DNA of 64,000 nucleotides from Nymphaea colorata (taxonomy: Eukaryota > Streptophyta > Magnoliopsida > Nymphaeales > Nymphaeaceae). A program made the translations under genes and the position numbers. Where the stretch lies: NCBI RefSeq assembly GCF_008831285.2, contig NC_045148.1, positions 7,693,001 through 7,757,000 on the forward strand, given 5' to 3'. Within the stretch, counting starts at the first letter, position 1. Each line of letters starts with the position of its first letter. Positions 1,691 through 55,315 of this stretch are shown here, piece by piece. The notes beneath the pieces are model-generated. The model saw only the letters and a program-made list of their open reading frames with translations, did not search any database and was not told the origin of the DNA.

Positions 1691-4600
1691 TAGGTTCCAA
1701 AGCAAAAAACTGGTTGCGAAGTGGCCCAACGGGCTGAGGAGTCTGTTATACAAGTAGCATTTGGCACACTATTTCATCACAATGATGCTTGGAAAAGAAG
1801 GAAAAAGTGTCTTTATGTCAGAAGTGATTTAGTAACAAGGGAAGGAAATGATGACACTGGTAGAAGCGTTCGAATCAAAATAGGACTAAATTATGAAAAA
1901 GATAGCAATCTTTTGAGTGAGTAAGAGAAATATTTTATCTTACCACCTAGATGGAAGACAAAGCTTTCACCTAACCTTTCATTCACTTGGAGTACATGGC
2001 CTGTTTTGGGTGCTTTGGAAGTATCATTTCTACTGAACTTCAACTTGTTTATCAGGTAGCTCCTTATTTGCAGCATAGAGAGTTAACATTCTACGGATTT
2101 GAAATAGAAATCGACTGCCTAGCAGCTCCCATCCCATTCGTTGTGCCAATTCCCTCAAGGGCGAAAACGAAGGCGGTCTTCACAAGTTAGATGTGGTGAG
2201 AGCAGCTGTTTTGTGTATGTATGTGCATGGTGTAGTGAGATTGACCACTTTTGATAGTCAATCATAGAAAAGGAAACTTTTCACAAGGTACATTACATGA
2301 AATTAACAAGGTAGAGAAAAAAAAAACCAAGTATTTTTGCAATCGATGGCACCTTAAACTATTAATTATGGGTACCATTTTTTGGGAAAGGGTCACATGA
2401 GGAGGAGTGAAACATTTTCTTTTTAAGAAGTGAGAAGAATACAACATAGCTGGTCGAAATGGGGAACAAGTAAACGGGGTGTCCTCGTTTTGATTTCCGT
2501 TGGTGCTACTTCTTTGGGATACAAAAAAATGGAGATGCTCTGATGGGTTGAAGGCTGTCCACTGCCCACCCAGGTCTTGATGCAACCCAGGACCTTATAG
2601 GCAGGGGGAATGGAGGAGAGGGAGAAGGGGAGGGTCTCTTTTTGGCTCATTTCGGAGCAGCGGTTAATCTTCTGCTCATCTGAAGGTAAAACAAAGTTTA
2701 ACAGCAAGAAAAAAATCTAGGAAAATAATAAGAGAGGAAGAAGAAAAAGGAGGTGGGCAATGGTTGGGAGCCTGGCACATTAAACCATTTATCATTTATA
2801 ACTTATTGTAGGTGATACAATTGAAATTGGAAGAAAAAATGTTATAGCTACAGAGCATGGGCTTACTTTATTTTATCTATTATTTCTCAAAAGGTTCAAT
2901 ATGTTGATCCCACCATGTTGATAGTCGAAGAGCTGTAGAACCTGTACCTGTACCTTTTCCTTCTTTTTTTTTTTCAGTTGACAATCTTCATGTCATTCAA
3001 TTTTACAAGATCAAGCATTGAAGCCAGCGCATATATTGCTGATTATTTTGTGCGTATTTATTAACGATTTGCCAGTTAACGTGCATAGCTGGTTTGCACC
3101 TTCGAACATCCTGCTCTTCGTTTTCTGCTTGCATCAACGATTAGTTGTGAAGATGGGTTTGAATTTATGTGGAACCATGCCTTTTTGCAAATTCTCGGGC
3201 CTACCTTATCATAAGCATTGGGCGGCTTTAATGGCGATCTCTGATCTCTTATGGCCTTCTCCCATCCATAATTTCTTAACAGATCATGAAGCATCACTCT
3301 CGTGCTTGCATCCTCTGTCGTATCTGACAGACATTAAAAATTTTCTGCACTTCTTTAAATTGACTTTGTTTATGGTGATGAGTTGCCAACGTCTTGACTT
3401 CTCTTTTTCACCTGTTTGCTATTAAGCCGAACACTCCAAAGCCTGTGGGTGACTATGTTTTTAGTTTGATTTCTGTAAGTATTATTTTTTGAATTGCAAA
3501 TAATAACACATATAAAACTAGAGCTAAAGGTTGTACCATAGGATTACCCAAATCTCAATGCAGCTCTAAAACCCGGTGGTATGTGGAGGAAGCTTCGACC
3601 TCTCATTCGGGTGAGGAGATTTCCTCCTCCTCACCTTCAAACTAACATTCTAAGATGTAGGGGATCACTTGCAGTTACACTTATAGTTACAAGATTAGAT
3701 GGAAAAAAAAACTGATTTCTAAATAAAAAAATTTCTTCAACGAAGATTTAGATTAACGTTACCATTAATATACGGTCAATCTCTCACAGAATATAATAAG
3801 CTGGCAAATCGGAAAACTATGAAAGCCAACTAATCTTATACTTAGGGTTAATTGTGAGATTACCCTAGCTCGCAGCTCCCGTAAGCAAAACTCGTGAACA
3901 ACCTATCTCTGCTTTTCTTTCTTTTTCTTCTTCTCTTCTTCTTTTCAGTTGGTGTTGCTGCTGTCTCTTCATGCACAGATTGGAGACACTGCAGGTGTGC
4001 AGACTCTGAGCTGATCACGGACACCATTCGGCTGCCAAAAATCCTTCACTAACTAGATGTAGTAGACAACTCCTGCTAGGCAGCTGTCTAAAGTTTCACA
4101 CTTTTATCCGAAACAAGAAGAACCCATTTCATTTCTGCGAAAGCATCTTAATGAACGTGCTCAAAGCACTTCTTTTTTGTTTCTACTGTTTAGTTTCTAC
4201 GACGTACTTCTTAGCTCAAAAAAGTAAGATACTTTCAAGAGTTGACGATGTGGTCGAATATATAAACGGGTTCACATTCACCACTCAAGCAGATAACGTT
4301 GCCTGCCGGCTGCCACCATCAATGCCTTCTCATGAAAGGAAGAAAGTTGAACTGCGGCGGTGTGATCAAGGTCCCACACGACAGTAAGTTGCATTGAATC
4401 AGTTTCAAATGGATTCGAATTTTTAATCTACTTTTTTTCCCTACCTTTCCTTTCACTAATCTTAAAATGGAGACATGGTTGTGAAAAGAACGGAGAAAAA
4501 AAAAGGGAAAAAGGTTAGAATCTTGAATAGTTCCTTAACTAAGCGCCTCCTACCTAACATCAACCCGTGTGCTAGCTAACTCAAGTTCAACCTATGGAGT

Positions 4601-6093
4601 CACTACTAACATACTTGCAGGTGAATAAGGTTTTCCACGAAGCTTTCACTTAGGGTACAAGATTTACCTTCGGCACCTTAATGTACTAGTTCCACCTTGC
4701 TTCAACCTGAGCGTCAATTTTGCAGCACACAGAGTTGGAGACTTGAGAATTCGAAATGAAAATTGATTGCCTGTCAGCTGTTGCTCGATTCCTTCACAAC
4801 ATCATACTTGACATTAGTGCTTACTTTTGAAGCAAATAGCTTGCCCACCAAGTAAATTTTTCCAGCTACCATCCAACCAATTGTTAAGAGTTTTTGACCT
4901 ACCAATATTTAGAACAGGCTTTTTGTGTGTTGGGTAACTAAAAAAATCAGGGGGCGCATGGATGATATTCCAAAACCAACTTTTAAACATTAAAAAAATA
5001 GTTTTCTTTCTAAAAAGCCAATGCTACGAAAATGAGTTTCACCAAAACGAACTTGTTTTTCAACTGAGTGAATAAACCAGCAGGCCCCACAAACTTAGTT
5101 TTAAAAAACTAGTTTTCATATCGTATTTTCGTTGATGAAGTTCCAGAGTCAGCCAATGAACTGTAACTAAATAGGCACCTTAAGGCTTAAGATTTTATGA
5201 CTTCGACAAATTTCTATGTTTTTTTTACTGCCACGAGATAACATTGTCAAAATTTTCAATTTTCTTTTATTTGAAAAGAAGCATTTGATCCTGTAGAAGT
5301 TCCTTTTTTTTTCTTGACTAAAGAATATGCCATGCAATTAATATGATAATGACGTCACGTTAGATGCTCATCTCCATCTTAGCACTAACACGAAAAGTTA
5401 CCCACAGTACACACCTTGATTATCTTGAGCAAAATGAACAGACATAAGAACTTTGTGCTAGAATAGTTTCATGACAATGTTTTCATTGTCTGATTAAGAA
5501 GCTGATCGTCATGACTTCTTCACATCGCCACCACTCACTTTTTCCTTTGTGAAAGATCTACATGATGGTAAATAAAAGCAGTGCAGATACACAACCTATA
5601 TGAGGGGCACACTTTTCGTTTTTCCTGTCCTCTTTTCTCTTTCAATCTCTTTAAAAGATGAGAGATTTGAACCTTTTTAATTGTTTTTACGGATGTATGT
5701 TTTGTTTTCTGATAATTCTGTGAAGTAGTAAAAAAACACGGTTACCAGATTACTGCTTCCGATTTTTCAACGTTCCCCTCTTCCTTTTGAAATTGATTGG
5801 TTTCTCCTTTTACAAGTTGCGCGCCTTTGGATCACATCATTAACTTTTTCTTTCTGCTTCTGAATCATAAATGGCTTTCATTCAATTTTTCTTCATTTAC
5901 TGGCGCCTGCAAGTGGAAGGAGACTCCCTTTTCACGCTTTTTCCACGCCCCATATTGCAAATAAGAAATGGCTCAACTACTTCCCTCCCACTGCAAAACC
6001 ACACAGCAGCACCACTGCCATCTTCACTTGGCACAGAATAGAACACAACCAAGTTCATGAAATTTCAACTATCTCGACGGTCAATATCAGGTT
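1691..6093. other. Spacer with diverged internal repeats
   Basis: No convincing gene is present. Two segments (about 1930-2160 and 4600-4800) share short diverged blocks around the words GCAGCAYASAGAGTT and ATTGCCTGTCAGCTG-like sequence, suggesting an old dispersed repeat. The reading frames at 3018-3425 (+) and 3076-3297 (-) overlap and neither matches a family I can defend. Confidence 0.4.
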
Positions 6094-9516: not shown

Positions 9517-9712
9517 CAGGGGCGGAGTCAGGATTTTGTTCCGGGGCGAGCCAAATAGTTCAACCTCGATCTGGGTAAGGCCAAACTGAATCCAAATAAA
9601 AAAAATACATTGCACAACTAATAATTTTTTATTTTTCTAATGTATTTTTTTTTTAAGTTAGTTAGGGTGGAGCCATGGCCTAGGCACCCCCCCCCCCTTC
9701 CCTCCGCCCCTG
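9517..9712. mobile_element. hAT-type MITE, 196 bp, CAGGGGCGGAG ends
   Basis: It starts CAGGGGCGGAGTCAGG and ends CCCTCCGCCCCTG, a terminal inverted repeat typical of a widespread plant hAT MITE group. It is flanked by a perfect 8-bp duplication ATTGTCCC (9509-9516 and 9713-9720). The perfect duplication suggests a younger insertion than its neighbours. Confidence 0.9.
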
Positions 9713-10010: not shown

Positions 10011-18039
<8,029 letters not shown>

Positions 18040-26400: not shown

Positions 26401-28460
26401 TTATTATTGAGATTAGGGTTAGTTAATTAAAAAATTTTCTCTCTCTAAAACTGCCGGCTGTAACATGTTTACAGATTCTTTCAAGATTGAGGAATAATTA
26501 AACAGGTCGACTAAACATCTAACAGAAAGAAGCTCTTGGTATTCAATATTTTGTTCATACTTCTGTGTCCACTTCCCAAGAGGTGAATTCTCAAAGGTAT
26601 CTCTCGTCACAAGGTGAGATTGAACAAATCAAACTTAACATCTAACAGATAAAAACAAACAGTTGATACTCAATACTTTGTTCATATTTTACAAATTATT
26701 CCATACCCGAAAAAAGTAGAATGAGGGACTCATATAAAAGAATAAATCAGGATGCAGTCCAACTTTGTACACTTAGCACACAAAGAAAATTTGACACAGG
26801 AAAAGACAAATTCAAACAACATAAGAGTATAGCATATGGAATATATATAGACCACCATAGACGAAGATAACTGCAGTAATCTATTAACTCAAGGGACATG
26901 ATAAATTGATAATACTTCTACTTTGAATTCTTTAAGGCTGCATACGAATGTCTACACTATTTCCACGTATGTCGGTATTCCAAGGCCAGAAAATTACATT
27001 GACTACAAGTATCAAAATTGACAGTGGCACAAATTTTGAAGTATGTCAAAGGATGTTAAGTAATGGTTAGTAAAGTTTGATTAACCAAAAAGAGTGTCTA
27101 TGCCACATTCACGATAATATAAATGAGCTGCAGTCAAGAAATACGATCCATTCATGAAGCACAAGAATAAAAGAGCCATATACCAGGGTTTTCAGAAAGC
27201 ATCAAATTCAGAAGAAGCTTTCTTCTTATCTCCTGTGCATCACGTACTTCACGAAGAAAAATGGCATGCTTCTTCACGCCACTGATATTAAAGGTCAAAG
27301 GTTCAGATCCAGAAGCAATAACAAGCTTATCATATGCAACTTTGAATTTGTATGGCCCATGTGGCAGCTCCTGACCATTTGTAGTTTCACAATAAACCTG
27401 ATTGAAAGGAAAATCAATGAATTTATATGCACAAAATAAATCATAACCAAAGCATGAGAGAAACAAATAGTCTTTGACATAAAGGTCAATCGTCTACCTA
27501 TTACACCTTTGGCAGCCTAATCTAATTCTTTTAAAGAAAAATACACGTTCAAAACCATGGTGAAATACGTGGACCTGAGTAATAGCCACCACCAACAAAA
27601 TATTCTGTTGCTACTCATCCAATGAAATACTTCCATCAACACTAGACACCATTGACGCTTCCTGCACTACATGCTAGTGCAGTTTCTCTGTGAGATTGCC
27701 CCAGTTATGATTCTCATTATCATAGTGCTCGAAAAGGTGATTGTTCCTTGAGTTCATCATTTTAATTACCAGAAATTTAAGACAATAATGCTAAGATTTT
27801 CAAACAACACTGAGCTAACATACCAAAACAGAAAGGCCCAATTACCTCATGCTTCCCTGTATCTAACCCAGTGCAGCTTGCCAGAAAGAAATGTGATTTT
27901 GGAGCTTTTGCTAGTGCAGATTGTATGCGGCTAACTGGTTCAGCAACTGACCTAAACTCCAGTGTTCCAACACATGTGGAAGCAAGCAGGGGAGTGAAAA
28001 CCATGTGGTTCCTTGGTGATATGCAGACGACATCATATGTTTTTGTATTTACACTTTTAAGAAATCTGCAGGCAGCCCACCCAGTACCCAGAACTACAAT
28101 TCTTGGCTTCTCATCGGGCTTTGTTGGACTCAGACCAGGTAAGTTAGAACTGTCAGACATTGTATCTTTGTTCATGTAGTCGATTACTTTCTCTGCAGAA
28201 GAAAATTTATGCTGGGATGATGTATTGATTCTCCTGTTCAAAGTCTCAGTATGGTTGGCTGCAGTTTCTCCAGTAAGTTGGCCATTTTGCCCAAACTCTG
28301 GTATGCTGCTCAGATTCACACTCCCAACATATGAGCAGCCGTGGCGAACACTTTTCGCGCAAACGTAATCACCAAGGAACCCCCCTTGATCCAAAATAGA
28401 TTTAAGTGATTGCCTCAAATTGTTCACAGGAAACCTCAACCTTACCATTGTATGCAACAT
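23409..28460 (-). CDS. NDA: NDA-type alternative NADH dehydrogenase
   Basis: Type II, rotenone-insensitive NADH:quinone oxidoreductase on the matrix side of the inner mitochondrial membrane; it passes electrons from NADH to ubiquinone without pumping protons. Eight coding exons on the minus strand: 28460-27846, 27397-27184, 26028-25868, 25773-25708, 25611-25448, 25354-25240, 24760-24581, 23561-23409, with phase-consistent GT-AG junctions and 555 residues. Features: FAD-binding fold at 118-150 ([10 protein letters not shown]), NADH-binding fold at 287-330 (GGGPTG at 293-298, acidic Glu330 ending strand 2, favouring NADH over NADPH), AIGDC near the second FAD contact, and the C-terminal membrane-anchoring segment with WRSAYLTR and [10 protein letters not shown]. 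No Ca-binding EF-hand is inserted, which excludes the NDB type. It ends Ser-Arg-Ile, as recalled for Arabidopsis NDA proteins reported to be dual targeted to peroxisomes. The start is the first ATG after an in-frame stop, and the variable first 110 residues suit a presequence. Confidence 0.95.
23672..23837. repeat. 90-bp tandem duplication in last NDA intron
   Basis: About 75 bp starting AACCTGTTTGGCAGCTC (23672) and AACCTGTTGGGAAGCTC (23762) are nearly identical, with a period of 90 bp. Both copies lie in the intron between the last two coding exons. Confidence 0.9.
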
Positions 28461-29527
28461 ATCCTGATAAGCCAATTATCTGAAATGTTCTATTGTAACA
28501 GAAACTGCAATTTAAGGTGTCAATTTCCACTTCCAGTATAGGAAAATTAAACCATTGTATAAGCTGACATCTTAACAAGTTGAAGTTTTCTGCAATTTTC
28601 CCTGCATAAGAAGTACAATAACGCACTTAATAGCAAGTTGTACAAGCAATATCCAGAAAACGACTGCCATCAAAAGTTCAAAGAGTTATAAATGATTTAC
28701 TCTGTAGGCAGAGGACTGAATGATGAATAAATTTCAAAGGTTTAATCCCAAAAAATTATACCTGATGACTGGTTAGAAAAATCATATTAAATCAGAAAAT
28801 TGGTGAAACAATAAGGGAAGTAAAGATACCTAAGTAATGTTTGTCATAGTAAGGAAAAATTTATCTACATGGGAAATGATAAACAATCTTCTCTTGTTTT
28901 ACACACCTAGCAATATCAACCATGCATGTTGCCCTCTCAAACTTATCAAATGTCAATGGTGTGCTAACAGGTAAATTGATCTTGTTTTACACACCTAGCA
29001 ATATCAATATATGACCTTGTTGGCATTTCACTTTGTTAAGTGAAAGCACCAGGTGGCTTGATCTTCGCTTATGACCGCGTAGATTCATTGTCAATTCATT
29101 TCACTAGCTGATATCACATGGATAAACAGTGACAAAACAGCCTGATAAGACCCTTATGATACAGCAAGAAATTTTGTCCAAGGTTAAAAACTGCACTGTA
29201 GAAGCGCCTTCCTGATCAATGTGCAAAATCTCCCTACTTAAGGTAAAAGGAAAAAAAAAATCGCAAACAATGAACAGATATTTCTAACGTTACATAAGTT
29301 ACCAATCACAAAGGTGGCTGTTTGATTTCTAGGAAATCGGAAACCTCACTACACTTACCAAAATCATAACACCAAGTTAGTCAACGGAATCTCTTGTAAA
29401 AGGATGCATCTGAAAAAACAGAAAATCATCTGTGTGTCGTCCCAGTTCACCAAGAAAAAAAGGAAAAAAAAAACTAAACACAATTAGAGAAATCTACTTC
29501 ACAATTGGAGAAATCTCCCTCTCTCTC

Positions 29528-31989: not shown

Positions 31990-32709
31990 CTATTCCCGCG
32001 TGCCATCCGCACGCGCGCCACCGGCCTCCTGCCGGACGTTCTCCTCCATCTTCGCCACCGCGTCGGCGTACATCCCAACCCGAAGGTTCCGATACACGTG
32101 CCTCAACCACCCCTTCGCGGCGAGTTCCTCCGCCTCCGCCACCGCCTCAGCCTCCGCTTCCGCCGCGCTCTGCGCTACCCGATCCACCATCCCAGCTGCG
32201 GCGGCCTCCTCCGCAGTCCATTTCCGCCCACGCAGCACCGCGTCCCGCATCGCCCGGCCGCCCATCTTTGCCGAGAGGAGCGCCATCGAACCCGCCGGGA
32301 TCTGGACACCGACGTCCACGGCCGCAAAGTACAGGAAGCCCCGGTCGCGCCTCATCACCCTGTAGTCGTGAGCCATCGCGAGGAGGAAACCGGCGCCCGC
32401 CGCGTGGCCCCGGACGGCAGCGACGGTTGGGACGCCGAGGCGGAGGTAGCGGAGGGCCACCTGCTCGAAGGAGGCGAGGAGCGACGGGAGCCGGGCCGCT
32501 CGATCGTAGTCGGCCCAGGCGAGGTCGAGCCCGTTGGAGAAGAACCGCCCGTCGTTCGTGGTCACAAGGGCCGCCGCGCCAGAGGAGGGGTCGTCGACGG
32601 CGTCTAGTGCGTGGAGGATGTCCGAACAAAGGCCCTGCGTTAATCGGTGCTCCGTCTCGCCGGCGAGCCGGAGAACGAAAATCCTGCCATGGCGTTCCAG
32701 CGTGCACAT
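31990..32709 (-). CDS. ECI: Enoyl-CoA delta isomerase-like protein (crotonase family)
   Basis: Single-exon, 239 residues, very GC-rich. The start Met-Cys-Thr-Leu-Glu-Arg and the whole layout match plant delta(3),delta(2)-enoyl-CoA isomerases, which move a double bond in unsaturated fatty acyl-CoA so that it can enter beta-oxidation. The oxyanion-hole segments are visible as FFSNGLDLAW (56-65) and GHAAGAGFLLAMAHD (101-115), followed by the DRGFLYFAAVDVGV core. The C-terminus ends ADGTRE after an Ala/Glu-rich helix. I see no peroxisomal PTS1 tripeptide, although Arabidopsis family members are recalled to end in a PTS1-like PKL. The opposite strand is open only because of composition. Family assignment is secure, but the exact activity and location are inferred. 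Confidence 0.88.
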   Translation of the reverse strand: MCTLERHGRIFVLRLAGETEHRLTQGLCSDILHALDAVDDPSSGAAALVTTNDGRFFSNGLDLAWADYDRAARLPSLLASFEQVALRYLRLGVPTVAAVRGHAAGAGFLLAMAHDYRVMRRDRGFLYFAAVDVGVQIPAGSMALLSAKMGGRAMRDAVLRGRKWTAEEAAAAGMVDRVAQSAAEAEAEAVAEAEELAAKGWLRHVYRNLRVGMYADAVAKMEENVRQEAGGARADGTRE

Positions 32710-42300: not shown

Positions 42301-44250
42301 ATGGAATTGGGGACATCACTGTGCACCTTCGTGTTCACCATTGCCCTAGTGCTGTGGGTGGCCATGGGCCTAAGAGCACTAATGGCGGGTTCCAAGGTTG
42401 GCGCCATGAGGCTCCCACCCGGCCCCCCTCGGTGGCCCATCGTGGGCAACCTTCTCCAGCTCGGCCCTCTCCCACACAGGGACTTCGCAGCGCTCTGCGC
42501 CAAGTACGGGCCGTTGGTGTATCTCAGACTCGGCAAGGTGGACGCCATTACCACCAACGACCCTGAGATCATCAAGGACATACTCCTCCGGCAGGACGAC
42601 GCGTTCGCGTCGCGGCCGCACACGCTCGCAGCCAAGCACCTCGCCTACGACTGCGGCGACGTCGCTCTGGCGCCGCTGGGGAAGCACTGGAAGCACATGA
42701 GGCGCATCTGCATGGAGCACCTCCTCACGACCAGGCGGCTGGAACGGTTTCAGGAGCAGAGGAGACAAGAGTCGCAGCACATGGTGCACACGGTCTGGGC
42801 TCGGGCCACGGCCGACAATCCGGCGGCGAGGGTCGTCGACCTGAGGGAGGTGCTGGGCGCCTTCTCCATGAACAACGTCACGAGGATGCTTCTGGGGAAG
42901 CAGTACTTCGGGGCGGAGGCGGCGGGGCCGGAGGAGGCAGCGCAGTTCATGCACATCACGCACGAGTTGTTCTCTCTGCTGGGCGTGATATATATAGGGG
43001 ACTACCTGCCGCTGTGGAGATGGGTAGACCCGACGGGATTGGAGAGGATGATGAGGGATGTTGAGAAGAGGATGGATGCGTTCCATGTGAGGATATTGGA
43101 AGAGCACAGGCAAAAAATTAGGGAGGGCAAGAAGAACAACAGTGTCGGGGAGGAGGAGTTGGTGGATTTTCTGGACATCTTGCTGTCGTTGCCTGGTGAG
43201 GATGGAAAAGAGAAGATGGAGGACTCCGAAATCAAGGCCCTTCTTCAGGTTTAGTTTAACTTGAACTGATCAGACTTAGTTTTAAATAACAAATTCAAAT
43301 ATAAATAAATGTCTGAACTGGATAGATTTAATAGTTTCAAATAAATATCATACATTTAATGTCTGTACATTTCGAAAATTGGTCCACAACATGTAATCGG
43401 TTCGTGCAAAAGTCGGACTCATATTCAAATGCGAATTTAAAAGGCCCAATTCGAATCTGATTTAAATATGATACAGAGATTGTTCTTAATTTATATTCGA
43501 GTCCTAAGTTAAATTCTAACATACCAACCCATAAAATCATATGATGCATCAATAGTATATTGCCGTAGGCCGCCATAGCTGATGCATTCATATTTACAGG
43601 ACATGATCGCAGCTGCAACTGATACGTCGGCAGTCACCAGCGAGTGGGCCATGACAGAAGTAATCAAGCAACCAAGGATCCTCCGCAAGGTGCAGGAGGA
43701 GCTCGACTTCGTGGTGGGCCGCGACAGACTGGTTTTGGAGGCCGACCTGCAGCACCTGCAGTACCTCCGGTGCATCGTCCGTGAGAGCTTCCGGATGCAC
43801 CCGGCTGGGCCATTCCTCATCCCACACGAGTCCGTCCGGCCAACCAAGTTAGCGGGCTACGACATCCCGGCGAGGACGCGAGTGTTCATCAACACGCACG
43901 CGCTGGGAAGGAACACGAACCTGTGGGACGACGTTGAAGAGTTCCGGCCGGAGCGCCACCTCCCGGCCCACGGCGACGGCCGGGTGGAGATAAGCCACGG
44001 TTTGGACTTCAAGATCCTGCCCTTCAGCGCCGGGAAGAGGAAGTGCCCGGGCGCGCCGCTGGGCGTGTGCATGGTCCTGCTGGCCCTGGCTAGGCTGCTT
44101 CATGCCTTTGACTGGTACCCGCCGGAGGGCTGCAGCGTTGATGACATAGACACCCAAGAGGTGTATGGCATGACCATGCCTAAGGCAAAGCCCCTTTTGG
44201 CACGAGCCAAGCCACGGCTACCCGCCCACCTGTATGCCTACCGAGCGTAG
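42301..44250 (+). CDS. CYP703A: Cytochrome P450 CYP703A, fatty-acid in-chain hydroxylase
   Basis: CYP703A enzymes hydroxylate medium-chain fatty acids (lauric acid, in-chain) in tapetal cells, providing precursors of sporopollenin for the pollen wall; the protein is anchored in the ER. Exons are 42301-43248 and 43600-44250, joined in phase 0 across a 351-bp GT-AG intron, giving 532 residues, close to the family norm. Visible features: N-terminal membrane helix (about 8-28), proline-rich hinge LPPGPPRW (38-45), I-helix AAATDTS (320-326), ExxR of the K-helix (Glu378, Arg381), PERH (433-436) and heme loop PFSAGKRKCPG with the ligand Cys465. The sequence between hinge and I-helix agrees closely with recalled CYP703A2 (for example EVLGAFSMNNVTRMLLGKQY and VIYIGDYLPLWRWVDP), which distinguishes it from CYP71 and CYP75 relatives. 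Exon 1 and exon 2 are GC-rich, unlike the surrounding DNA. All catalytic residues look intact. Confidence 0.95.
43249..43599 (+). other. CYP703A intron
   Basis: AT-rich intron with a GT donor after GCCCTTCTTCAG and an AG acceptor before GACATGATCGC. It contains ATTCGAATC and ATTCAAATGCGAATT words resembling the AATCCGAAT repeats near 60 kb, so it may hold an old repeat. Confidence 0.8.
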
Positions 44251-50452: not shown

Positions 50453-51762
50453 GCCGCCATGATCATCACCACCATCACCTGCCACCATTTCTTCCTGCAT
50501 GTTAGTGATCAAAATGTTGGCGCTGCATTTGTAGGCAGTGCCTTTGCTTAAGCAGTGTTAATGGTGGGATTTGGCAGCTCACACAGGCCATATGTCAGTG
50601 TGATCCAGAATTTGAGATGTATAGGTTGTTACTGTCGATGAAGAAATAAAGGCGTTCTTGTAAAACTGCTAGAATGCCTATTGTCAATGCCTTGGAACCA
50701 TGAACACCCTTCTGTCTTAGCTTGTAGATGTTGATAATTGAAAGAACTACTATTTGTTTCCATTTTCAAATATATATGCTTTCTTTATTTTCACTTATAT
50801 CTATCATTTTGAATAGCTAACTGGTGTGGAGTAAACCTTTGGCTTGACTGCATCCCCGCGTATCTCTGTCTGTCTCTCTCTGATGAGCCCTTCAAAGGCC
50901 ATTCCGGTTCACGGAGATGCTCTATTGCTCTTTAAGAGGAAGTAATTCCTGGGGAAGTCCAGACCACCATTCTTAATTGATAATAACAGTACATATTCTG
51001 GGAAAGTGGTGGTTACAGAGTAACAGGTCGGGACTTGACCTTACGACTTCATTTGTTTAATTCAGTTCATTTTTTTTATTTCTTGTGACATTGATAACTA
51101 TTAACTTCTACATTTTCGTGTAAACAATAAATTTTAGTTAACCAAAACTAGAAAAGGATTAGTTTGGATATATTTATTCCTTTTTTCGTTTTAATGGATG
51201 GCATTCTAGAATATGGTTATAATATCATGTATGTTACTCAAACCCCATAGCCGATTGATTCAGCAGCAGCGTGTATATAGGTGCAAACGTAGATCAAGTT
51301 GAAGGCTATTGAACTTCATTAGTTTTGTGAGCTTCTTGCATCACCGGATTCTAGACCATGCATGGGGAATCTCCAAGTTCTCTTAAATGTGTCAAACTTG
51401 CAGATTTAGGAGGTGCACATCACTGCACAACCTTTTATACTCGTCTATTAATTTGTTTGTAGAAAGTCATAATTTGGGAGAAGGGAAAATAATTTCTCAA
51501 AAGAAATGCAACAGAGAGAGGAAACTTCAGGAAAATGGAAAAAGCTTCAAGTTAGTTGCATAAATGTGGCACATTAATTTCCAATGTAACTTTTAACCAA
51601 ATTCCTGGGAAAAAGCTTCAAGGCAATATTGCTAGCTTCATGTATGACTACAATTCATATTGTTGCAAGTATTACAGTGGTCACTAGTGACTGTTCAGAT
51701 CCTGAAGAAGATGAAGTTAAAGAGATAAAGTAGATGAAGAACAAGCTTTACAGCACTTTTCT
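50453..51762. other. 3' flank of zinc-ribbon copy 2; spacer
   Basis: After the polyadenylation word at 50645 the sequence is AT-rich and non-coding. Nothing else is recognised before the CACTA element. Confidence 0.5.
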
Positions 51763-52638
51763 AACTATAAAAAAAGATAGATTCACCGACATGTTGAAAA
51801 AATGAACGTCAATGAAAGTGTATTTTTACCGACGTCCAGGTCAACATGTAGTTGAAAGCTTACTTTTACCAATGCCATATGTCGAACGTCATTGAAAACA
51901 GCCTCCATCGACGCATACTGCTATAATGTCATTAAAATTTAGCTTTTATCAACGGCCAGTTTGAGAACATCGGTGATGATTTAACTTTTACCGCTAGGTG
52001 CTCAATGTCGCGTCGATGAAAGTGTTTCTCAGTGAATAATTACCGATGTCCATTGACTTCATTGGTATAACTCAACTTTTACCGATGCGTACCACTATAA
52101 TGTCGTTAACATTCAGTTTTTACCGACAGACCAGTCTGAAAACATCAATGAAGATTTAACTTTTACCGACATGTGCTCATGCTCACGTCGGTGAACGCAT
52201 TTCTCAGCAAATAATTATCGGCATCCATAGGCTTCGTCAGTATAACTCCAACTTCATTGACACAGTTAGCTGGACGTCAGTAATAATTTTTTACCAACGT
52301 GATATGCGTCGATAAAAAGTTGGTGGACGTTTTTACTGACACATGCTCATCATCTTTTAACATCTAACACAACAAGGTAGGTTTCCGCATTCTTAATGCT
52401 AAGTTTTTTTTTCTATTTGTGAATGATTTTAGGTTATAACATGAATTTAGGGTACGTGTCTGAATTTTTTCGGTGAGATTTAATCGGTTTTCAGTACTGT
52501 TTGGCCATGAACATTTGTTTAGCTTAGTACTTTCAATTTAATATATTAATTACAAGAAATATCTGCACAAACACCAAACCCCCAAGTTTTGTCTTGGCCA
52601 GATTCGGGTGTCAATTCAAGAGCATCGGCAGGAGCAAG

Positions 52639-52728
52639 ATGGATGGAGGCAAGGGTAAGAAGGGCTCTTCTAGAATCTCTCTCCAGCAATTCATCACTAC
52701 CACGATGTCCTTGATCGACATGGAAAAG
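52639..52728 (+). pseudogene. Captured first-exon fragment, SMUBP-2-like helicase
   Basis: The frame from an ATG reads 30 codons, including SLQQFITTTMSLIDMEK, then meets a GT (AAG|GTTCTTC) like a 5' splice site. By recall this resembles the start of plant IGHMBP2/SMUBP-2-type helicases, which begin with a short basic stretch and a (F/I)xxxxxLIDxEK motif. There is no continuation, so it is an exon fragment carried by the transposon. The assignment is from a short stretch and could be wrong. Confidence 0.35.
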
Positions 52729-52973
52729 GTTCTTCTTCTTCCGCGTGCTTTTCCTTGTTGCTAACTATTTGTGCTGATTACGATGCCTGTTGGATGCTCA
52801 TATTGTGATTCTTTCTACAAACCTTTGAATCTTACTTGGTGCCTTCACTAGTAGACTTGCCTTGTTGCTTGTACATTTTTGTTTGTTTTCTTAGAATTTC
52901 TCTTCTGCTATTCATTGATTGACTGTAGAGTAGGCTTACAATGATTCTATCTTCGGGGCAATTAATTTTTTGA

Positions 52974-53084
52974 GATTTCGAAGCATCAAACATCCTTCTA
53001 GATAGCAACTTCAATGCAAAGCTCTCTGATTTTGGCTTAGCAAGGGAGGGACTTGCTGAAGGCTTTAGTCATATTTCTACCTAT
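52974..53084 (+). pseudogene. Captured kinase fragment (RLCK, DFG region)
   Basis: Reads [20 protein letters not shown], then GLAREG and SHISTY, the catalytic-loop tail to DFG and activation-loop start of a receptor-like cytoplasmic kinase. A stop codon (TGA) stands where the Arg of the usual YRDFKASN should be, and a GT follows the last codon like a 5' splice site. The kinase lobe before and after is absent, so it is a gene fragment inside the CACTA element. Confidence 0.75.
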
Positions 53085-53770
53085 GTATGTCTTTAATTGC
53101 TTTCTGAACAAACAAATGACTATAGTTATTTCAATTTGTGAATATGGTATTTGGGTTGTTCCACAATTTGTTGCTTGCATTACTTTTAGAAGAAATAGTT
53201 GGAGACTTCAATGGCTTTTGGTTGCCTATCATCTTCATATTTTTCGCGTCATAATGTACCGAAGACTTGATGGGCAGTAATGGTGGTATCCTTTGCTTTT
53301 CTTTATAGGTGATGATTGTTATTTTTTCTTCTTTTTTTCTGCTTCTTTTTTGTCACGAATATTGTCAGCATATCGTTTATGCTTATTACGAAAAATTTTA
53401 TTGTCATTTGTTTGTTCAGAAAGCAATTAAAGACATACATAGGTAGAAATATGACTAAAGCCTTCAGCAAGTCCCTCCCTTGCTGGGACTATAGTTATTT
53501 CAATTTGTGAATATGGTATTTGGGTTGTTCCACAATTTGTTTCTTGCATTACTTTTAGAAGAAATAGTTGGAGACTTCAATGGCTTTTGGTTGCCTATCA
53601 TCTTCATATTTTTCGCGTCATAATGTACCGAAGACTTGATGGGCAGTAATGGTGGTATCCTTTGCTTTTCTTTATAGGTGATGATTGTTATTTTTTCTTC
53701 TTTTTTTCTGCTTCTTTTTTGTCACGAATATTGTCAGCATATCGTTTATGCTTATTACGAAAAATTTTAT
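53039..53770. repeat. X-D-inverted X-D rearrangement inside CACTA
   Basis: Block X (53039-53120, 82 bp, including part of the kinase fragment) reappears reverse-complemented at 53403-53484. The 284-bp block D (53118-53401) is repeated directly at 53487-53770 with one visible mismatch (GTTGC versus GTTTC). The arrangement X, D, X reversed, D implies a recent strand-switching duplication, or else a sequencing or assembly artefact. Confidence 0.9.
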
Positions 53771-54303
53771 GATCAAATGCCATACTAATCACCCAAACGA
53801 AGAAAACTTTGGCACCTGTAAACTTCAGATGTCACATATGCATGCATGACAGATATATTTACAGACATATTTATAGTTGAACTTAGTGTAGCTGTTTGTT
53901 TTGATACATTCAACATGTAAGCAGATTAACATGTACATCTAGTTCCGACTTTCAGAACTAATTATGTCATTTGTGCATTAGGTAAAAAAAATTAACAAAT
54001 TTTCGCCGACGCTTGAAATTGCACAGATAATAGTTTTACCAGCGTCCGCACCTAATGTTGATAATAGATTTACCGATGCCTAAAACATGTCGGGGACGTC
54101 GGTAATAATCAATTTTATCTACGCAACGAACACGTTAGTGTAGGTAATCTGTACCGATGTTTAAGACGGTTTGTCAGTGAAAGTTTTCATTGACCCCAAC
54201 TTCAACAGCAACCTTATATGGCATCGGTAAAAGTTTTACCAATGCATGCCTATATTTTACCGATGTTTTCTGGCCAACGGTAAACCCTTGTTTTTTTGTA
54301 GTG

Positions 54304-54372
54304 TCTCCAAGTTCTTCCTCTTCAGAGGACTTCGCCTCAACGTTTTGGTAGAACATAAAGAGCCTACAGGCA

Positions 54373-54413
<41 letters not shown>

Positions 54414-55315
54414 CAAGAAATCCTCCCACCTCTCACAACATACTGCTAGCATCAAAACAGTATATTTACTTACATCTTCTCAATGCATTGCATGAAACAA
54501 CTGTGATTGGACAGAGTTCAAGATCATCTGAATATATATATATTCTAAAAGGATTGCAGAAGTGCATAAGCTCGTATATAGATTCGAAATAAACAACTTT
54601 CAGATAAATCACCATCGGTCTCCAACATGGTCGCTGCCACTATTTGCTGGCCCGGAGTACTTCTTCCACATGTGGTTACATGTGCTTCTTTGTGGGCCAA
54701 AACTTTCTGGCTAGTTAACTTCCAGCTACCGCTCTCTAGAACTGCGTAGAAACCACCATTAAGAAACAAGAAAGCAGAAAGCAAAGTTAATTTATTAACG
54801 CTGTGGCTCTTGGCTCAGTCGATCGATCAGTTCATGGTTGGCATGCATATGTGGCTATAGTCGCTTGCTTTTTCTTTTTTCAGGATAAGGTTTTTGGATT
54901 TTTTTTTTCTCTAGTCTGCATGAAAATTTTTGTCCAATCTGCAGGTCATCTTTTTTGTAGATCTTGTACTCAAATAAACTGAATTGTTAGGTCACACTTG
55001 TTCACAGTTAATATGTTTGAAGTATAATTCCCATTTCACTGCTTAATGTATATAATTCTTCCTTTTTTCATTTTTTAGCTTCTGAAATCTATATTCATAT
55101 TTGCTACTCACATATATACCCATGTTTCTGCATAAGTAGTACGTACGTACCATAAATGTGGCAAATGTTTTACACAGGAGACATCAAATTAAAAAAGATC
55201 AGTCTGGAAGACATGAAGTCACATATCTTCCATGTCCAAAATGCATCTTTCCACATAGTTTTTAGTGACACAAAATTTTAAAAATGACCATCCAACCACA
55301 TAGGTAGCCGGTGGT

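Follow-up and report, generated by a model that had tools for sequence, protein, structure and literature searches.

The interval 51763-54303 of the window, the 64,000-nucleotide stretch of Nymphaea colorata DNA analysed here, is almost certainly a non-autonomous, gene-capturing CACTA transposon of the Pack-CACTA type, in which the transposase region has been replaced by a nested cargo from two host genes, and which has moved with that cargo as a unit. A gene-capturing (transduplicating) CACTA element was the original prediction for this interval, and it is borne out by donor genes in the same genome, by similarity to these donors through both exons and introns, and by a sister copy carrying both captured pieces. 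The features of the element are listed in Table 1.

Table 1. Features of the element in window coordinates; L012 and L013 are the kinase and helicase donor loci, respectively
Feature	Position	Strand	Remarks
Left target-site duplication TCT	51760..51762	.	matched by right TCT
Left terminus AACTATAAAAAAAG	51763..51776	+	starts with A where relatives have C
Left subterminal repeat array, TTTACCGACG-like in both orientations	51782..52318	.	14 matches
Leader common to transposase-bearing relatives, contains AAGGTAGGTT	52344..52606	+	
Captured helicase (SMUBP-2-like) piece 1	52620..52864	+	L013 5149-5363 (88%), then 5517-5545 (90%)
Captured helicase exon 1, open, MDGGKGKKGSSRISLQQFITTTMSLIDMEK	52639..52728	+	ends at GT
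Captured kinase piece, nested in helicase piece	52862..53282	+	L012 3328-3384, ~3717-4051, 4510-4550; 82-85% including introns
Captured kinase exon	52962..53087	+	in-frame TGA, lost AG acceptor
Arm K, kinase exon/intron edge	53039..53124	+	99% complementary to 53399-53484
Repeat A1	53118..53406	+	99% identical to 53487-53775
Helicase piece 2, first copy, inside repeat A1	53278..53401	+	L013 5745-5854, 77%
Arm K', inverted copy of K	53399..53484	-	
Repeat A2, continues ancestral order	53487..53775	+	
Helicase piece 2, full copy	53647..53863	+	L013 5745-5947, 82%
Right subterminal repeat array	53891..54284	.	10 matches, <=2 mismatches
Right terminus CACTACAAAAAAAC (reverse complement)	54290..54303	-	ends at 54303
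Right target-site duplication TCT	54304..54306	.	

Element ends and relatives in the genome

CACTA (En/Spm, CMC) elements create a short target-site duplication of 3 bp. Inverted termini, a 3-bp duplication and subterminal arrays were all found here, with a tnp2-type transposase in relatives, placing the element in this superfamily; the ends, the TCT duplication and the array had each been anticipated from the sequence. Allowing two mismatches or fewer, the TTTACCGACG motif occurred 14 times in the left 556 bp (shuffle mean 0.59, 300 shuffles, maximum 4) and 10 times in the right 413 bp (shuffle mean 0.44, 300 shuffles, maximum 4), in both cases far over the shuffle means, with four matches in the element interior (shuffle mean 0.46) and 29 in the remaining 61.3 kb of the window. 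The first base was correctly predicted to have changed from C to A, as a CACTA start is present in the sister on C12, an element on C7 and a relative on C11 (the last a left end only, chosen by eye). Elsewhere in the window a cytochrome P450 gene (two open stretches, PF00067) lies at 42301-44250, ~7.5 kb before the element, and reverse-strand coding stretches of enoyl-CoA hydratase/isomerase type (31990-32709), pyridine-nucleotide oxidoreductase type (27777-28475, match below cut-off) and inositol-monophosphatase type (12863-13486) were also detected.

Searching the genome (407.8 Mb, 783 contigs) with the whole element returned at least 54 matches (40 of 120 candidates scored), and with the right end at least 24, hence family size is a lower bound. 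A scan for element ends covered 39 loci (42 loaded, three redundant ones skipped), many of only ~3 kb. One full sister was found at C12:2813602-2816271 (L009 3602-6271, 2670 bp) with TAA on both sides, and both captured pieces are present within it in the same arrangement. The C7 element (L010 3678-6193, 2516 bp, reverse strand) has CTT on both sides and lacks the captured pieces. Duplications were thus seen at three different sites (TCT in the focal element on C11, TAA and CTT), and since matching 3-base flanks were required by the scan, these do not amount to three independent pieces of evidence. The flanks of the three elements are non-homologous, short repeat matches aside, which indicates separate insertions. 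As the sister carries both pieces in the same arrangement within its own TAA duplication, the cargo travelled as a unit and, as in Pack-TYPE elements, was multiplied by transposition with the same cargo joins. Sister copies whose boundaries excluded the captured pieces had been named as the outcome that would count against gene capture, and the sister on C12 includes both. Eight more loci, inspected under looser end criteria for further complete sisters, gave end-like motifs from which no element could be settled. Matches on C7, C11 and C12 all lie near 2.81 Mb, which was considered as a shared locus and is taken as coincidence, the flanks not being homologous. The kinase intron of the sister holds an extra insert of ~0.25 kb (L009 4950-5201), which over part of its length shares 76% similarity with window positions 9568-9701; judging from this similarity, it is probably another repeat.

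Alignment of the C7 element with the focal element runs to just before the cargo and resumes just after it, so the cargo took the place of one internal stretch. A second captured gene was considered for the C7 interior and rejected, its first ~340 bases aligning with the interval between leader and transposase in the C11 relative, and the C7 element thus looks like a deletion derivative.

The leader is the most widespread part of the element among the whole-element matches listed. A transposase match (PF02992) was found within 10 kb of the leader at eight of 30 leader places, always downstream and on the same strand, in a comparison that used 91 of 154 PF02992 matches. These eight places represent seven distinct transposase matches (two places share one), and at six of them the transposase is 1.0-2.8 kb away. 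This link to downstream transposases means that host DNA now stands in sense behind a former transposase leader. The relative at C11:2.817 Mb shows the order CACTA end, subterminal repeats, leader and transposase region, the latter interrupted by stops; its right end was not found. No intact transposase could be tied to the exact ends of the focal element among the 154 PF02992 matches reported; most of those listed carry stops, nine listed without a stop cover part of the domain only, and the focal element itself is absent from the matches listed. Within the leader, AAGGTAGGTT (52374-52383) resembles a 5' splice site. Its pattern was fitted by four of the eight sequences scanned (focal, C7 and C11, and the sister with GC for GT), and not by a second C11 place, L014, L015 or L017. 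A 37-aa stretch after the C11 leader, at first taken for a CACTA transposase N-terminus, matched no Pfam family.

Donor genes and the nested cargo

The original prediction proposed that donors for the kinase and helicase-like pieces should be sought in the same genome, where their absence would speak against capture, and both were found. The first helicase piece had three matches, namely the focal element, the C12 sister and a donor at C6:24.837 Mb, while the nine kinase matches comprised three in the focal element, one in the sister, one donor and four that are short and inside the exon. The kinase donor (C6:363682-364051, at 0.364 Mb) is 85% identical through exon and introns (370 bp); exons neighbouring this stretch match PF07714 and PF00069, and the gene is a putative receptor-like cytoplasmic kinase. 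The first exons of the helicase donor (joined by eye) match PF21138, the SMUBP-2/HCS1 1B domain (E 5e-21), and SMUBP-2 in PDB 4b3f (E 7e-11); across exon and intron this donor matches the element at 88% over 215 bp and at 82% over 217 bp. Fragments of host genes enclosed by the ends, whose donors are present in the genome, are a second Pack-TYPE feature found here. Searched by itself, the captured helicase exon had one weak Pfam match, to linker histone (E 0.056, below cut-off), which is taken as chance; PF21138 was obtained with the donor stretch. On the reverse strand a long open frame, retrotransposon polyprotein-like by eye, lies a few kb downstream of the first exons of the helicase donor (L013 8300-9499).

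The donor-derived stretch spans 52620-53863, and the kinase piece is nested within the helicase piece, occupying the site of a 0.2-kb stretch missing from the latter. Every cargo piece keeps the sense of its donor, and the pieces follow one another monotonically along each of the two donors (Table 1), with the last kinase stretch reaching L012 4578 in the sister as against 4550 in the focal copy. Each piece consists of one whole donor exon and parts of introns, with internal deletions, and the kinase piece has in addition a scrap of a later exon. The helicase exon had been predicted exactly, including its end at a GT. A GT likewise closes the kinase exon, as predicted, but this exon had been placed at 52974-53084, within the true exon, and it holds a TGA and has AA at its acceptor. 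Similarly, the claim that parts of two unrelated genes were copied with their introns stands, although the nesting, the longer donor-derived stretch and a rearrangement at 53039-53775 had been missed.

Exact identity at the five joins is 0, 3, 6, 4 and 0-1 bp, where random joins would be expected to show >=3 bp in ~6%, >=4 bp in 2% and >=6 bp in 0.2% of cases. Three of the five thus have 3-6 bp of identity and the other two nothing beyond chance, all joins being read through ~13% divergence, as the two copies are of considerable age and decayed. Joins common to the focal and sister copies are helicase 5363/5513, helicase-kinase, kinase 3384/3717 and kinase 4051/4509; the cargo boundaries are also common to both (by eye), and at the kinase-helicase join a small deletion arose later in the focal copy.

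Decay of the copies and the fold-back

Over 805 aligned cargo sites the distances were nearly equal, at 0.128 between focal and sister copies, 0.129 between focal copy and donor and 0.128 between sister and donor (49 focal-only, 48 sister-only, 49 shared and 6 three-way differences), so the copies split soon after capture, within error. Substitution rates are near 7e-9 per site per generation, at which the split would be several million generations old. Coding has been lost in the focal kinase exon, through the in-frame TGA and the acceptor reading AA for AG, and the focal helicase exon is still open; in the sister the kinase exon is open and retains both AG and GT, and the helicase exon is without an ATG.

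Focal and sister copies differ more in the backbone (222/1199 sites) than in the cargo (99/807, p 0.0002), in a comparison that left out 66 sites between named regions. An exchange of cassettes between different backbones was considered and rejected, as transversions alone (62/1199 vs 37/807, p 0.60) and sites outside CG/CHG-like contexts (71/637 vs 52/493, p 0.77) show no difference between backbone and cargo. The excess is limited to transitions in CG/CHG-type contexts, which would fit methylation-type decay.

The rearrangement at 53039-53775, with the order K-A-K'-A, is present in the focal copy and not in the sister. A1 and A2 have one difference in 284 sites, and K and K' one in 86; as these repeats are ~99% identical and the two copies ~13% apart, the rearrangement is young relative to the element. 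Its joins combine a short one-mismatch match with a GG filler (by eye) and are typical of template switching. Such near-identity could also come from an assembly artefact, yet this is very unlikely, as the joins carry single-base filler or mismatches, the ends are unequal, there is no simple read palindrome, and the sequence around the fold-back matches the sister in order.

Folded as RNA, 53030-53495 reached -209.5 kcal/mol, compared with -101.8 (sd 5.5) for 100 shuffles (z -19.5), none of which was as stable. The 86-bp arms and 274-nt spacer agree with the long arms of a MIRNA or hairpin-siRNA locus. Among arm 21-mers, 32 of 66 match the donor with two mismatches or fewer, of which 11 are inside the exon, each with two. 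For 51500-54600 a single Rfam match was listed, at 53928-53980 and outside the fold-back; with E 0.33 and 21.8 bits, where the gathering score is 70, it is taken as chance. It is a long shot that, after capture, a second template switch folded the kinase exon/intron edge behind the former transposase leader, that a transcript would form the 86-bp hairpin, and that the element is becoming a regulator, a silencing locus of very recent origin and less far along than miR820 of rice. If true, this would be such a locus in an early-diverging flowering plant. As a candidate open to testing, the element may show how a captured gene fragment starts to become a silencing hairpin.

Routes of capture and comparison with known elements

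Because a single genome holds both likely donors, the sister, a cargo-free relative and transposase-bearing relatives, the succession of events is readable as transposase loss, nested capture, spread and later fold-back. An element with tnp2-bearing relatives would have lost its transposase region, with host DNA taking its place. A helicase-gene segment (~0.8 kb donor span) would have been interrupted by a kinase-gene segment (~1.25 kb donor span), with internal deletions, and the chimera may then have been mobilised as a unit by transposase acting in trans, leading to the two copies found, on C11 and C12. Much later the C11 copy would have gained its duplication-inversion-duplication, putatively through the same type of repair as the capture itself. 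How transposons capture genes, whether by template switching in repair or by fusion of neighbours, is the wider question on which this element bears.

Capture probably took place by template switching while a break linked to transposition was being repaired, and not by fusion of neighbouring elements followed by kinase insertion. In the fusion route, put forward for Pack-CACTA (Catoni et al. 2019, as summarised in passages of PMC13317346 and PMC8903248), two CACTA elements flanking a host segment lose their inner ends and are mobilised as one, and the kinase scrap would have been added separately. It would explain a contiguous helicase stretch between left and right half-elements. However, the kinase piece is bordered by helicase DNA to its left and right, and neither join shows a TE end, so fusion requires a second event of another kind. 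In the 8.0 and 9.5 kb analysed around the donors, the captured stretches are the only parts that match the focal element; we consider this route possible but rather unlikely. Alternatively, a kinase fragment may have entered a duplicate of the helicase gene first, the chimera then being captured in one step. Nesting and shared joins would follow equally from this, but the helicase-piece matches found in the genome are the donor and two elements only, and the matched span of the donor is without a kinase insert, making such a course improbable. Similarity alone carries no direction, yet it is scarcely conceivable that the genes took their sequences from the element, since the donor stretches are parts of genes that have exons to either side and encode known domains (PF07714, PF21138) and the C7 backbone without the pieces runs on into sequence common to the transposase-bearing relative. 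Template switching of the repair type best explains both the nested cargo and the later fold-back.

This kind of element is well known, and what is new is the nested two-donor cargo, its location at the tnp2 position behind the leader, and the young fold-back. In the collection of papers searched, none treats CACTA transposons together with Nymphaea. Those CACTA elements of this genome that bear tnp2, such as the one at C11:2.817 Mb, share the left end, subterminal region and leader, but have a PF02992 region (with stops in the C11 case) where the focal element has host DNA. Pack-CACTA elements are established in the parts of PMC8903248 and PMC13317346 seen here, and those of Arabidopsis, rice and maize (Pack-TYPE) are similar in having non-autonomous CACTA ends around host gene fragments at low copy number. 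Our element differs in its 3-bp duplication, where an excerpt of PMC8903248 gives 5 nt for rice and maize CACTA, and in a cargo from two genes, one nested in the other. Soybean Tgm-Express1, as described in an excerpt of PMC1947982, is a CACTA element carrying five host gene fragments with introns, and likewise holds several unrelated fragments, exons and introns included, inside CACTA ends; it is 5.7 kb as against 2.5 kb here, where the two donors are nested. The precursors of miR820 in rice are embedded in CACTA elements, and they have a fold-back similar to an exon/intron stretch of OsDRM2 (PMC3459959, in part), as the fold-back here resembles a host-gene exon/intron stretch within a CACTA element. 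The likeness is structural only, our case having a kinase donor, 86-bp arms and a 274-nt spacer. Going by that portion of PMC3459959, the miR820 precedent makes a path from captured fragment to fold-back small-RNA locus a known one.
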